Notes under the pieces: model-generated
What the model saw: the letters and a program-made list of their open reading frames with translations, nothing else
What the model was told of the DNA's origin: nothing
Database searches by the model: none
Translations under genes and position numbers: made by a program
In this document: positions 6,810 to 11,289 of the stretch, piece after piece
Layout of the letters: every line of letters begins with the position of its first letter
Position numbering within the stretch: position 1 is the first letter of the stretch
Source of the DNA: Candidatus Chisholmbacteria bacterium RIFCSPLOWO2_01_FULL_49_14
GTDB taxonomy: Bacteria; Patescibacteriota; Microgenomatia; UBA1400; Chisholmbacteraceae
DNA length: 38,334 bases
Assembly (NCBI GenBank): GCA_001816915.1
Contig: MHCL01000011.1
Coordinates: 14,462-52,795 of the forward strand
Direction of reading: 5' to 3'

Positions 6810-6883
6810 TGCGGGGTCGTCTAATGGTAGGACACAGGCCTTTGAAGTCTGGTATGATGGTTCGAATCCATCCCCCGCAGCCA
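6810..6883 (+). tRNA. tRNA-Gln(TTG), CCA encoded
   Basis: Acceptor TGCGGGG/CCCCGCA, discriminator G, anticodon arm CAGGC-CTTTGAA-GTCTG (TTG). It is the only one of the 14 tRNAs here with a genomic CCA. That CCA is part of the GCCAG that begins the inverted repeat of the adjoining recombinase element. The recombinase reading frame runs antisense through the gene and stops in its D-loop region. Confidence 0.94.
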
Positions 6884-8377
6884 GTAAGAAGATGAAAGCC
6901 GCAAAGAGGTAGCGCTTTTCGCGCCCGCCTCCGCGGAAAGCGCGTCAAATCCGCCTTTTTTGAAACTTGCGGACAGCCGCCGATCAGTTAAAAAGAAGTT
7001 CGAGCCGACAGTTTTTGCCATGATTGATAAATCATGGCAACTATTTTTTGCGCGCGCGATTTTGTGCGCTGAAAGCGCGCTATTTACGAATTCCTGGAAA
7101 GGTTCGAGCCACTCAACGCCGTTTTGGGAAATTTCCTTAATTTTGGAGTTGAGAAGTGATTTTTTTTCTACCATTTCGTTTTTCTTCTTTTGATAATCTT
7201 CAGGGTTGATAATTTTGTCTAAATAGCCCTCGAGCAATCGGTCTAGTTTTTCTTCGGTTTCTTTCAATTGGAATTGATAAGTCGAGACAATCCCTGATGA
7301 TTTATCTTTTTCCTCATTTGCGTCTTTATCCGCCCATTCAAGAAACTTTTTGGCGGCGTGCGGGGGCAAAGAAGCTCGCAAAACAAGTTCTTTTAGTTGT
7401 TCCTCAATTTCCTCTTTATCAATATATTTTTGCGAGCAATTACCCATTTTTTTCGAGCAACGGTAGTAGATATACTCAACTTTTCTATTTGTCCGCTTGT
7501 AATACTTGGTATGTTTTTCTGCCGTGATTGCGCCGCCGCATTCGCCGCACTTAACTAATCCCAGAAAATCAAAAAAGTGTTTATTGTTTTTGACTTTGCG
7601 GCTTTTGAGTTTGACGACCGCTTGGCACTTATCAAAAAGTTTCTTGGAAATTAAGGGTGGATGTTTTCCTTCGTAGAGTTCGCCGCAAAATTTCATCACT
7701 CCATAGTAAAACGGATCAGTCAAAATTCTTTTGACTTTATCAAGGTGGAGTTCGTGACCGGACTTGTTGAAACTTTTATTTTGGTTGAAAAATTTGCGTA
7801 TATCCGCATATCCATAGCCGCCGGTTGCAAAAAGCTGAAAAGCTTTTTGCACATACTTGGCTCGTTTTTTATCAATTTCAATTTTCTTGTTGATGTTTAG
7901 ATAACCAAATGGGGCTTGATTCGGCCACTCGCCTCGGCGGAGTTTTTGGCGATTGCCACGCTTTACATTCTCGGAAAGATTATCAACATAATACTTAGAC
8001 TGATTAAATGCCATCCCTAACATAAACTTGCCTTGCGGTGTGTTCTCAAACCAGAAGCTAGGAAATTTCAGGTCAAGTAATTTTCCTGTATCTAATAAAT
8101 AGATAATCTTACCGCCATCAACAGAATTTCTGGCTAAACGGTCTGGATGCCACGAGATGATACCGGCGGCTTCGCCTCTTTCTATCATCTCTAAAACTTG
8201 AACAAATATTTCCCTTCCGGGTTCTTTAGCGGTTTTACTCTCGGTAATAAAAGAAACGATTTTCAAATTTTCTTTTGCGGCGTGTTCTTCGAGTTCTGCA
8301 ACTTGTGCCTCAATAGACAAAATTTGTCTGTCTGGTTCGTCTGTAGATTTCCTGCAATAAGCGATGTATTTAATCAT
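6821..8377 (-). CDS. Large serine recombinase
   Basis: 518 aa. The N-terminal resolvase domain opens with YIAYCRKSTDEPDRQ (catalytic Ser in CRKS, about residue 11) and keeps SWHPDRLARN with the catalytic Arg residues. Next come a recombinase domain (NQAPFGYLNI..., HLDKVKRILTDPFYYGVM) and a zinc ribbon (CGECGGAIT...YYRCSKK...C, about 280-320). A coiled-coil region and a conserved LGSN-like C-terminal block (VGSNFFLTDRRLSASF) follow. It catalyses site-specific DNA integration, excision or inversion through a phosphoserine link. About 33 C-terminal codons lie in the left 103-bp inverted repeat, and the last 20 or so are antisense to tRNA-Gln, which supplies the stop. AGGAG lies 14 nt before the start. 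The gene is visibly AT-richer than its neighbours, consistent with transfer. Confidence 0.92.
   Translation of the reverse strand: MIKYIAYCRKSTDEPDRQILSIEAQVAELEEHAAKENLKIVSFITESKTAKEPGREIFVQVLEMIERGEAAGIISWHPDRLARNSVDGGKIIYLLDTGKLLDLKFPSFWFENTPQGKFMLGMAFNQSKYYVDNLSENVKRGNRQKLRRGEWPNQAPFGYLNINKKIEIDKKRAKYVQKAFQLFATGGYGYADIRKFFNQNKSFNKSGHELHLDKVKRILTDPFYYGVMKFCGELYEGKHPPLISKKLFDKCQAVVKLKSRKVKNNKHFFDFLGLVKCGECGGAITAEKHTKYYKRTNRKVEYIYYRCSKKMGNCSQKYIDKEEIEEQLKELVLRASLPPHAAKKFLEWADKDANEEKDKSSGIVSTYQFQLKETEEKLDRLLEGYLDKIINPEDYQKKKNEMVEKKSLLNSKIKEISQNGVEWLEPFQEFVNSALSAHKIARAKNSCHDLSIMAKTVGSNFFLTDRRLSASFKKGGFDALSAEAGAKSATSLRLSSSYWLRGMDSNHHTRLQRPVSYH
6880..6982 (+). repeat. Inverted repeat IR1, left arm (103 bp)
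   Basis: Aligns without gaps to the reverse complement of 8479-8581 with about nine mismatches. It begins with the tRNA-Gln discriminator and CCA (GCCAG) and runs into recombinase C-terminal coding sequence. Confidence 0.93.
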
Positions 8378-8427
8378 ATTTTTTTATATTATCTCCTAAA
8401 AGTTCTTTAAGCGAATGATAGTGAGCA

Positions 8428-8455
8428 GGGCTTCTTTCCAAGAAGCCCAATTTTT
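8428..8455 (+). terminator. Rho-independent terminator-like hairpin
   Basis: GGGCTTCTT-TCC-AAGAAGCCC followed by AATTTTT: a 9-bp stem, 3-nt loop and T-run on the plus strand. It sits just upstream of the leftward recombinase gene and faces away from it, so it would block transcription leaving the element rather than end a visible gene. Confidence 0.6.
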
Positions 8456-8478
8456 GCGTTTTTTCTTCTTTCTTTTTC

Positions 8479-8581
8479 CGGCGGCTGTCCGCAAGTTTCA
8501 GAAAAGGCGGATTTGACGTGCTTTCCGCGGAGGCGGGCGCGGAAAGCGCTACCTCTCGACGGCTTTCTTCTCTTTACTGGC
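8479..8581 (-). repeat. Inverted repeat IR1, right arm (103 bp)
   Basis: Partner of 6880-6982. It ends in CTGGC at 8577-8581 and overlaps the next repeat, IR2, by two bases. Confidence 0.93.
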
Positions 8582-8676
8582 TGGCCGTTTACAAAAAATG
8601 TCGAACTTCAATGTGTTAGCTCGCCGCTTCGCGGCTCGCTTGCTCCGGCGCGGCGCCCCCACCCGCCGCGCCTCCG
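8580..8676 (+). repeat. Inverted repeat IR2, left arm (97 bp)
   Basis: Reverse complement of 10091-10185, with a 2-nt indel in a hairpin tip and a few substitutions clustered at 8610-8615. Contains GGCCGTTTACAAAAAATGTC and a GC-rich outer half (GCGCGGCGCCCCCACCCGCC). Its own small hairpin CCGCTTCGCGG differs from the partner's GCCTTCGGC but keeps the pairing. Confidence 0.93.
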
Positions 8677-8740
8677 AAACTGTCGACTCGTATCCTAAAA
8701 GAAAAAACGCAAAAAATTTAAAGAACTTTTTATTAACTCA

Positions 8741-8823
8741 AATGGCCGCCCCGGTTGTAGTCAAACCCTTTCGGATCTGCCCGAGACGGCCATTAAAAAA
8801 TCCGAAAGTTGGTTTGACTACAA
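8741..8823 (+). other. Long hairpin with possible pseudoknot upstream of the TrpD-like gene
   Basis: TTGTAGTCAAACC (8755-8767) plus CTTTCGGAT (8768-8776) pair perfectly with ATCCGAAAG (8800-8808) plus GGTTTGACTACAA (8811-8823): 22 pairs with a 2-nt bulge. CGGCCATT in the loop (8787-8794) is fully complementary to AATGGCCG just upstream (8741-8748), allowing a pseudoknot or a switch between two folds. It may be a leader RNA controlling the downstream gene or a recombination site. The function is unknown. Confidence 0.6.
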
Positions 8824-8930
8824 ATACACTATACTAATTTTCAACCAAGAAAACAATAGTAGTTGTGCTACTCAACTTTTAAGAAAAGCGGTATAATTTA
8901 GTAGGAAGATCTAAATTAATTGTTTAACCT

Positions 8931-10022
8931 ATGCTTTCAGATATCATACCCCTTATCCAAAAAGTAACAGAACGAGAAAATCTTACTGTCGCTGAAACGG
9001 AAAGAGCTTTTACTATTCTTACGAAAGAGGACCTAGAGGGGTACTACTTTTTTGTTTTTCTTGCAGCGTTACACGCAAAAGGCGAAACTTCTGATGAACT
9101 TCTTGGCTACATACGCCGTACAGAAAAACTTGCTCCGCCACACAGCATCAAACTTGGAGATGATGTCATTGAAATAGCCGGAACTGGAGGTGATAAGTTA
9201 AAAACACTGAATGTTAGCACTGCGGTAGCTTTTATCTTGGCAAGTCTTGGAATTTACGTACCGAAACAATCTTTCTTTGCTGTAGCAGGTGTGACTGGAA
9301 GCGGTGATTTATTGGGTGCTTTTGGAGTTGACGTTATGAAAATTTCATTGAGCGGTATAGACAAAATTACGGAACTTTTACAGAAAACAAGGGTTGCTAC
9401 TTTTGTTGTTAACTTTATGGCTGACCCAAAAGAAATTAGGGGTATTTTAACCTGGGCAAAAAAACGACAAGAGCTTAATTTAAACCATTTGACGATTTTT
9501 CATTTAGCCGCAAATGTTTATAACCCATTTCCGATGAAAAGCAGAATATATGGAGTATTTGACTACAAGTATCTTCGTGTACTTGCAGAACTATTTCAGA
9601 AACTCAAATTCGAGCGCGGTCTTGTATTTCATGGCGAGGGTGGATTAGATGAGGTATCCAACATTGGGGAAACTCAGTTTATTGAATTTTCTCAGTCAGG
9701 ATTAAAAGAATATAAGTTATCACCAAAGGATTTTGGAGTGCCCGTGGCGAAACAGGAAGAAATACAAGCAACAAGTAGAGAAAAAAATATTCAGGATTTT
9801 CTTAAAATTATTTATAACAAAGAGCGGGGTCCCAAACGTGATTTAGTAGCGATAAATACTTCAGTCGCTCTCTATACTTTAGGTAAAATAAAGTTGTGGA
9901 AAGATGGAACTGAATTGGCGAAAAAACAACTCGAATCTGGAAGGGTAGCGCAAGTATTTGAAAACTATATTAGCGTAGCTGGCGACTTTAGCCTTTTACA
10001 GAAATACCTTGCTAACTTATAA
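8931..10022 (+). CDS. TrpD-family (anthranilate phosphoribosyltransferase-like) protein, substrate uncertain
   Basis: 363 aa, normal TrpD length. It keeps the PRPP-binding GTGGD (84-88), NVST (94-97), GSGD (123-126) and the C-terminal HGEGGLDE (234-241). The KHGNR motif is replaced by PKQSFFAVAG (111-120), and the conserved R-T-x-F-N-x-x-G-P-L region reads HLTIFHLAANVYNP (186-199), lacking the anthranilate-contacting Arg. There are no other trp genes in the window. It probably handles another ring substrate with a phosphorylated ribose donor, or is only a fold relative. A TATAAT at 8892-8897 may be its -10 box. It lies alone inside the IR2 repeats and is AT-rich, so it looks like cargo. Confidence 0.75.
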   Translation: MLSDIIPLIQKVTERENLTVAETERAFTILTKEDLEGYYFFVFLAALHAKGETSDELLGYIRRTEKLAPPHSIKLGDDVIEIAGTGGDKLKTLNVSTAVAFILASLGIYVPKQSFFAVAGVTGSGDLLGAFGVDVMKISLSGIDKITELLQKTRVATFVVNFMADPKEIRGILTWAKKRQELNLNHLTIFHLAANVYNPFPMKSRIYGVFDYKYLRVLAELFQKLKFERGLVFHGEGGLDEVSNIGETQFIEFSQSGLKEYKLSPKDFGVPVAKQEEIQATSREKNIQDFLKIIYNKERGPKRDLVAINTSVALYTLGKIKLWKDGTELAKKQLESGRVAQVFENYISVAGDFSLLQKYLANL

Positions 10023-10090
10023 AGTTAAGGGTTGTTCTCAACTTTCTTGGTGATTGTGAAGCAATCGCAAATCGCGCGCGCAAAAAATAG

Positions 10091-10185
10091 CGGAGGCGCG
10101 GCGGGTGGGGGCGCCGCGCTGGAGCAAGCGAGGCCGAAGGCCGAGCTAATTAAATGAAGTTCGACATTTTTTGTAAACGGCCAGC
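10091..10185 (-). repeat. Inverted repeat IR2, right arm (95 bp)
   Basis: Partner of 8580-8676. It ends GGCCAGC at 10179-10185, where sequence unrelated to the island begins. Confidence 0.93.
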
Positions 10186-10821: not shown

Positions 10822-11289
10822 GTGAAGACCAGAACCTGGACAGAATCACAATTACGTCGAGCAGTAAAGAACTCGAGAAGTATTCGGCAGGTTCTAAAAG
10901 CACTGAAACTTCGAGAGGCCGGAGGCAACTATGCACAGATCAAGAAGTATTTGCACTTTTATAAAGTGGACACATCTCATATTAAAGGTAGGGGTTGGAA
11001 TAAAGGGTTAAGAGGAACTGGACATCCAAAACTTTCGCTTGCGGAAATACTCGTACGCGGGAGCACTTTTCAGAGTTATAAATTAAGAAATCGCTTATTC
11101 TTGTCAGAAATCAAAGCGAAGCATTGTGAAAAGTGTGGTTGGGCTGAGAGGTCTTTGGATGGCCGTCTTCCTCTTGAACTTGATCATATCAACGGAGATA
11201 GCACCGATAATCGTTTGAGCAACTTACGGATTCTCTGTCCCAATTGTCATAGCCTTCAGCCTACCCATCGCGGCAGAAACAGAAAATAA
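10822..11289 (+). CDS. HNH endonuclease beside tRNA-Leu(TAA)
   Basis: 155 aa, GTG start (an in-frame TAG lies four codons upstream). The N-terminal region TWTESQLRRAVKNSRSI...GGNYAQIKKYL is a helix-turn-helix-like DNA-binding part typical of small free-standing HNH proteins. The nuclease has CEKC (102-105), LELDHINGD (118-126), N130 and N134, and CPNC (139-142), giving a zinc-stabilised HNH fold. It probably nicks or cuts DNA as a homing-type enzyme. The stop lies 3 nt before tRNA-Leu(TAA), and a tRNA-Leu-like 5' relic lies just upstream, the same arrangement as the GIY-YIG gene at tRNA-His. Confidence 0.88.
   Translation: MKTRTWTESQLRRAVKNSRSIRQVLKALKLREAGGNYAQIKKYLHFYKVDTSHIKGRGWNKGLRGTGHPKLSLAEILVRGSTFQSYKLRNRLFLSEIKAKHCEKCGWAERSLDGRLPLELDHINGDSTDNRLSNLRILCPNCHSLQPTHRGRNRK

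Follow-up and report, generated by a model that had tools for sequence, protein, structure and literature searches.

Large serine recombinases (LSRs) act by recombining an attP site with an attB site, and excision needs a directionality factor. Phage-type members of the class, such as the LI/A118, Bxb1 and phiC31 integrases, have the domain order Resolvase, Recombinase, zinc ribbon, use a short crossover core, and recognise an outer motif that lies about 5 bp further from the crossover in attP than in attB. LSRs are also borne by the staphylococcal cassette chromosome (SCC), where they are known as Ccr and the target is rlmH. Genomic islands and IMEs that integrate at tRNA genes target the tRNA 3' end, restore the gene with element sequence and carry variable cargo including defence genes. 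Two inverted recombinase sites on a single circle are known from the yeast 2-micron plasmid (FLP), which is made up of a half with the recombinase and another half. A last point of comparison is the eukaryotic element DIRS-1, with its tyrosine recombinase and reverse transcriptase. This retrotransposon integrates by site-specific recombination without target duplication, and its termini, once joined, are matched in inverse complement by an internal complementary region (ICR), with an overlap of 3-4 nt at the junction (PMC3266345).

The locus described here lies in a stretch of 38,334 nucleotides (the window) from Candidatus Chisholmbacteria bacterium RIFCSPLOWO2_01_FULL_49_14, in which a gene for an LSR is joined to a tRNA-Gln gene (Table 1). 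We consider it quite probable that the LSR belongs to an integrative element, 3.3 kb long and one of a family widespread in the ultra-small CPR bacteria, which would integrate as a circle through its LSR and carry a second, inverted attP, the template or splint role that we propose for this second site being the least certain part. The integrative-element reading itself is well supported, sequence comparisons showing the anatomy, the rules of the att sites, the range of targets, an empty site, arms homogenised within elements and a constant orientation. An LSR-driven element at a tRNA gene is of a known kind; what is new is the internal inverted attP, an arrangement of which we found no description for any bacterial element among open-access papers.

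Table 1. Features of the putative integrative element and its tRNA target, by position in the window; att assignments are predicted.
Feature	Position	Strand	Basis or remark
tRNA-Gln(TTG), target gene	6810..6883	+	ARAGORN; T-loop TTCGA at the spacing of other targets, 17 nt 5' of the core
LSR, 518 aa	6821..8377	-	Resolvase, Recombinase and Zn_ribbon_recom domains
attL crossover core CAGC (tRNA positions 71-74)	6878..6881	+	4 nt common to J1, J2 and J3
Arm A, P half of attL	6878..6982	+	inverted near-identical match at 8479-8583
22-nt segment	7041..7062	+	exact inverted repeat at 10069-10090
Recombinase-leader piece	8451..8467	+	inverted copy at 8699-8715, within the cargo leader; 8398-8410 and 8718-8730 form a like pair
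Arm A', A half of internal inverted attP	8479..8583	-	inverted copy of arm A
Core of internal inverted attP (junction J2, where A' and B' meet)	8580..8583	-	core comparison
Arm B', B half of internal attP	8580..8676	+	TTCGA 22 nt from the core, the attP spacing, likewise in relatives
Conserved cargo leader (J2-side inner flank)	8677..8860	+	common to elements with unrelated cargo
Cargo gene, trpD-like anthranilate phosphoribosyltransferase	8931..10022	+	TIGR01245, above cutoff
J3-side inner flank	10069..10090	+	exact inverted copy of 7041-7062, just inside arm B
Arm B, P half of attR	10091..10185	+	inverted copy of 8580-8676
attR core, right element boundary	10182..10185	+	chromosome beyond

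The recombinase has the phage-type domain order (PF00239, PF07508 and PF13408, all above Pfam gathering cutoffs), and its sites show the short core and the motif shift of about 5 bp. Unlike phage-type integrases, the LSRs of this family target tRNA 3' ends, of at least 16 isotypes, via a T-loop motif, and a second, inverted attP is retained in the element; we identified no directionality factor. As in SCC, cassettes are borne by an LSR, with weak similarity to CcrB and CcrA, but the element LSR lies far below the Ccr cutoffs (98 bits against 900 for the CcrB equivalog, outside Ccr membership; the NCBIfam similarities, to Ccr and XisF, are all sub-cutoff) and the target is a tRNA, not rlmH. The likeness to DIRS-1 consists in an internal region complementary to the joined termini with a short common junction, J2 standing against J1 and J3 as defined below. 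The element differs in having a serine recombinase and no dedicated reverse transcriptase, and since it has no tyrosine recombinase, and reverse transcriptase is occasional cargo only, we do not class it as DIRS.

Two pairs of inverted repeats define the locus. The arms of pair A, on the recombinase side, are separated by 1496 nt and are ungapped, as the original prediction had it, with exactly nine mismatches, where it had about nine, over 105 nt rather than the 103 bp that it gave. It had also made the left arm start with the discriminator and CCA; both are inside the arm, which begins two bases earlier at tRNA-Gln position 71, its CAGCCA comprising the two final acceptor bases, the discriminator G and CCA. 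It was right that this arm covers the recombinase C-terminus, that the recombinase stop falls in antisense tRNA sequence, and that tRNA-Gln alone among the 14 tRNAs in the window has an encoded CCA. All 14 genes encode C74 after the discriminator, the full CCA occurring only in the element-modified tRNA-Gln. A second pair, B, which the original prediction missed, flanks the trpD-like gene and overlaps pair A by 4 nt; as pair B abuts pair A, the feature extends to 10185.

Three junctions can thus be distinguished, J1 between tRNA and arm A, J2, internal and inverted, between arm B and arm A, and J3 between arm B and the chromosome, and a 4-nt core (CAGC in the window) is common to all of them. 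We read J1 as attL, whose attB half would be the tRNA-Gln sequence from the T-arm to the acceptor 3' end, with CCA supplied by the element; J2 (B/core/A at 8583) as an intact extra attP, internal and inverted; and J3 as attR. The internal copy, of about 200 bp, lies between recombinase and cargo, and the element would run from 6878 to 10185 in the order attL, LSR, inverted attP, cargo, attR. The transposon-like ends proposed earlier do not fit this anatomy, in which the right repeat at 8583 would be half of the internal attP and the true right end the attR at 10185. Outside the element, an HNH-endonuclease-like ORF (10822-11289) ends 4 nt short of tRNA-Leu, and another locus (L053) has a similar HNH ORF (2030-2503) immediately ahead of its tRNA-Leu; tRNA-associated homing-type genes in CPR are a possible explanation for such ORFs.

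A profile scan of GTDB contigs, from which 80 loci were kept of 567 confirmed relatives (nearly all labelled CPR), was supplemented with 80 further regions taken from whole genomes, leaving 153 distinct recombinases (at least 41% identity) after removal of duplicates. The A arms are found in 135 of the 153, and the pair A arrangement is not chance, because it recurs to this extent; they are present at 102 of the 110 loci with enough flank. Both pairs were detected in 70 relatives, median arm identities are about 98%, and in most elements pairs A and B have 4-7 nt in common at the same core. Of 373 sampled genomes of this CPR class, 85 (about 23%) carry one or more LSRs of this clade. Control LSRs of about 40% identity or less, from the same kinds of genome and beside tRNAs, are without the inverted copy (they score at shuffled level, with a positive control of 70/70). 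Since these sister tRNA-linked LSRs do without it, the internal attP would most likely have arisen as a derived feature in a single clade. The repeats go with the LSRs of that clade, contrary to the possibility, raised at the outset, of similar repeats unrelated to recombinase genes. Plasmid and phage collections yielded only distant LSRs (<60% identity). A viral origin was considered and dropped, the five matches in a scan of viral contigs being uninformative.

Parts of at least two more such elements occur in the genome of the window (L051, G000:C29:1-1448, and L005, G000:C10:1-1565), in each case cut off by the end of a contig within or close to the J2 region. Contigs of many relatives (e.g. 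L074, L083, L086, L105, L107, L124 and L136) often break off precisely where arm A' reaches J2, as is expected of long exact inverted repeats, and such elements are probably under-assembled in MAGs. At one locus (L135, 1-72, recombinase-minus orientation) arm A abuts the B arm of a different element and not a tRNA, which would reflect tandem integration or the reuse of attL as a target.

The target tRNAs of the family comprise 16 isotypes, and the core covaries with the tRNA at J1, J2 and J3 (CAGC for Gln, GCAC for Leu, TCAC for Lys and Glu, CCGC for Ser, CCAC for Ala); attR is without a consensus on its chromosomal side. From the start of the T-loop motif TTCGA to the core there are 17 nt in tRNAs and 21-22 nt in the internal site, the shift between the two, over 95 loci, being +5 in 53, +4 in 28 and +6 in one, with the rest unscored. 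This matches the 5-bp shift of the zinc-domain motif between attB and attP published for serine integrases (Rutherford et al. 2013, PMC3783163) and supports the identification of the tRNA as attB and of J2 as attP. Several loci at which no tRNA was detected still show a T-arm at the junction; Rfam found no tRNA at the junction itself in such loci.

An empty tRNA-Gln site, which the original prediction had suggested seeking in relatives, was found in a genome of the same family with syntenic neighbours (G002), where the same tRNA order, with tRNA-Gln and tRNA-Leu separated by 1 nt, is uninterrupted. The downstream flank differs in G002, so that it is the tRNA cluster that matches and not an exact attB. 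This agrees with the mobile-element interpretation first given to the joining of recombinase and tRNA-Gln, and the locus has what characterizes tRNA-integrating elements: a predicted attL at the tRNA 3' end, attR downstream and, with the same limit to the tRNA cluster, an empty site. For the Collierbacteria element (G012), a search for its downstream flank within its genus gave no precise empty site.

The cargo of relatives includes restriction-modification genes (HpaII, CfrBI, type I, type III, D12) as well as Shedu, AbiP2, Schlafen-type, NYN, radical SAM, aminotransferase, EamA and trpD genes, and its transcription is directed away from J2 in 25 of 35 cases. According to PADLOC, two cargo members match AbiP2/DRT. 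A reverse transcriptase gene is the cargo of one element (L072), and reverse transcriptase was seen only as occasional cargo. In its tRNA 3'-end target, in the restoration of the gene by the element and in variable cargo with defence genes, the family resembles tRNA-integrating islands and IMEs; unlike these, its elements are often only 2-5 kb long and contain the inverted internal attP. No relaxase, conjugation or mobilisation gene is among the Pfam matches listed for cargo (for part of the ORFs, one listing giving 25 of 73 families).

The arms of an element are about 98% identical to each other, many of them 100%, and diverged from those of other elements: the closest match is the other copy in the same element in 130 of 136 cases for arm A and in 65 of 70 for arm B. 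Identities of A and B arms correlate weakly (rho 0.26, p 0.03). Mismatches are not biased towards G-U wobble (72 vs 66 and 30 vs 31), 43-47% of them are transversions, and in arm A they increase away from the core. These three properties fit copying of DNA between arms rather than selection for RNA pairing, which we rejected as the wobble counts give no sign of it. One element (L061) has J1 and J2 A arms that are only about 70-80% identical, against 99% in close relatives, and is possibly a hybrid of two elements.

Complementarity extends beyond the arms. The cargo flanks inside arm B contain inverted, mostly exact copies of pieces of the recombinase gene: in the Parcubacteria type, those of codons ~46-52, the 3' end and the 5' leader are on the J2 side, beside B', and that of codons ~29-40 is on the J3 side, beside B, and in the window type two 3'-end pieces and leader pieces are copied. 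An inverted match of at least 15 nt is present at J2 in 56 of 70 elements, with none in direct orientation and none in shuffled sequence, and most copies track their own recombinase better than those of other elements. Some of them may be shared leaders of divergent genes, which do not explain the internal coding pieces.

The orientation of both halves is fixed. In all 118 tRNA-anchored loci the tRNA is at the recombinase 3' end, never on the J2 side, and the attP next to that end is the only one ever seen used. Elements with unrelated cargo still have conserved inner flanks of arm B in common, both at J3 and at J2, where the leader measures at most about 150-180 nt, and the matches between pairs of elements were 439 J2-J2 and 190 J3-J3, with none of the 629 crossing sides. 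Inversion of the whole recombinase gene, which the original prediction had thought possible and proposed to check through inverted forms in relatives, is not borne out by either count; on these orientation tests we rejected inversion of recombinase or cargo, which would predict mixing of the sides.

How, then, might the second attP be explained? Each gene having its own inverted pair, one could imagine two tandem inverted-repeat transposons, one with the recombinase and one with trpD. This is scarcely credible: the pairs overlap at the same core in most elements, sequence pieces are common to both halves, and the combined A/B junction has the spacing of attP half-sites, so that two independent transposons were ruled out on the shared core and the attP spacing. 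An analogy with the 2-micron plasmid or the plastome, in which inverted attPs would recombine, flip the halves of the circle, amplify copy number and keep the copies identical, has in its favour the same topology (two inverted recombinase sites on a circle of which one half codes for the recombinase) and the homogenised arms. Such flips would randomise cargo with respect to recombinase, and the flank counts, which show no inversion isomers in either the 629 pairs or the 118 loci, bring this idea close to refutation; the element, unlike the 2-micron plasmid, also integrates at tRNAs. LSRs are moreover described, in a passage of PMC3783163, as not recombining other pairings such as attP x attP, and we regard this explanation as very unlikely.

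A regulatory region seems unlikely too, even if the site lies between two divergent genes with common leader pieces and the cargo is usually transcribed away from it: LSR bound at the internal attP would repress both diverging promoters, that of the recombinase and that of the cargo, and the arms, rich in hairpins, would insulate the halves from read-through. An operator needs about 50 bp, not some 200 bp of near-identical sequence, and the sister tRNA-LSR elements manage without the internal copy. Somewhat unlikely, in our view, is a passive origin, with an ancient inverted attP duplication kept uniform by RecA gene conversion and an orientation fixed by selection only (e.g. against harmful tRNA read-through into a flipped recombinase). 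Arms that are 100% identical and the weak correlation between A and B identities speak for it, but it must account for the total lack of crossover inversions, the cargo half included, and for near-universal retention where flanks are available.

The reading that we prefer begins with a circle that would integrate by LSR recombination between attP (B/core/A) and the tRNA 3' end (T-arm plus positions 71-74), giving attL (tRNA/A) and attR (B/chromosome) and leaving the tRNA intact with a CCA from the element. Excision, the circle and a single-stranded form are predicted stages, and the free form would be circular and contain two inverted attPs. A contig of 4636 bp (L101) is a candidate for such an extrachromosomal circle: its ends overlap by 51 bp and, once joined, give the order cargo-B-core-A-recombinase, with an N gap exactly where the internal attP is expected, and a collapsed repeat could imitate a circle. 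Another (L133) was rejected as a circle, the base before its core not fitting attP.

In a single-stranded stage, the internal attP, which is complementary to the joined ends, may act as their template or splint, and copying of one arm from the other at that stage would homogenise the arms without inversion. We favour this role tentatively, because all repeats are inverted, none is seen recombining, and the internal site complements the joined ends, as does the ICR of DIRS-1. Its extension to DIRS-like regeneration of ends by a serine integrase through a single-stranded stage, which would take in the short recombinase copies and perhaps suit ssDNA uptake in natural competence, is possible if doubtful. 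Several points weigh against our reading as a whole. A fully double-stranded circle should use two identical attPs equally, and the ratio of 118:0 would need selection after integration or some other asymmetry; for template-switch repair, a distance of over 1.5 kb between arms is unusual; and the arms show no sign of RNA-pairing selection.

A second attP that is nearly universal, homogenised and never inverting does not follow from known integrase biology and is directly testable. The family is at the same time a source of many serine integrases specific to tRNA 3' ends, with readable rules for their att sites. As its elements carry restriction-modification, Shedu, AbiP2 and metabolic genes, they are candidate vehicles of gene transfer in these bacteria with tiny genomes.
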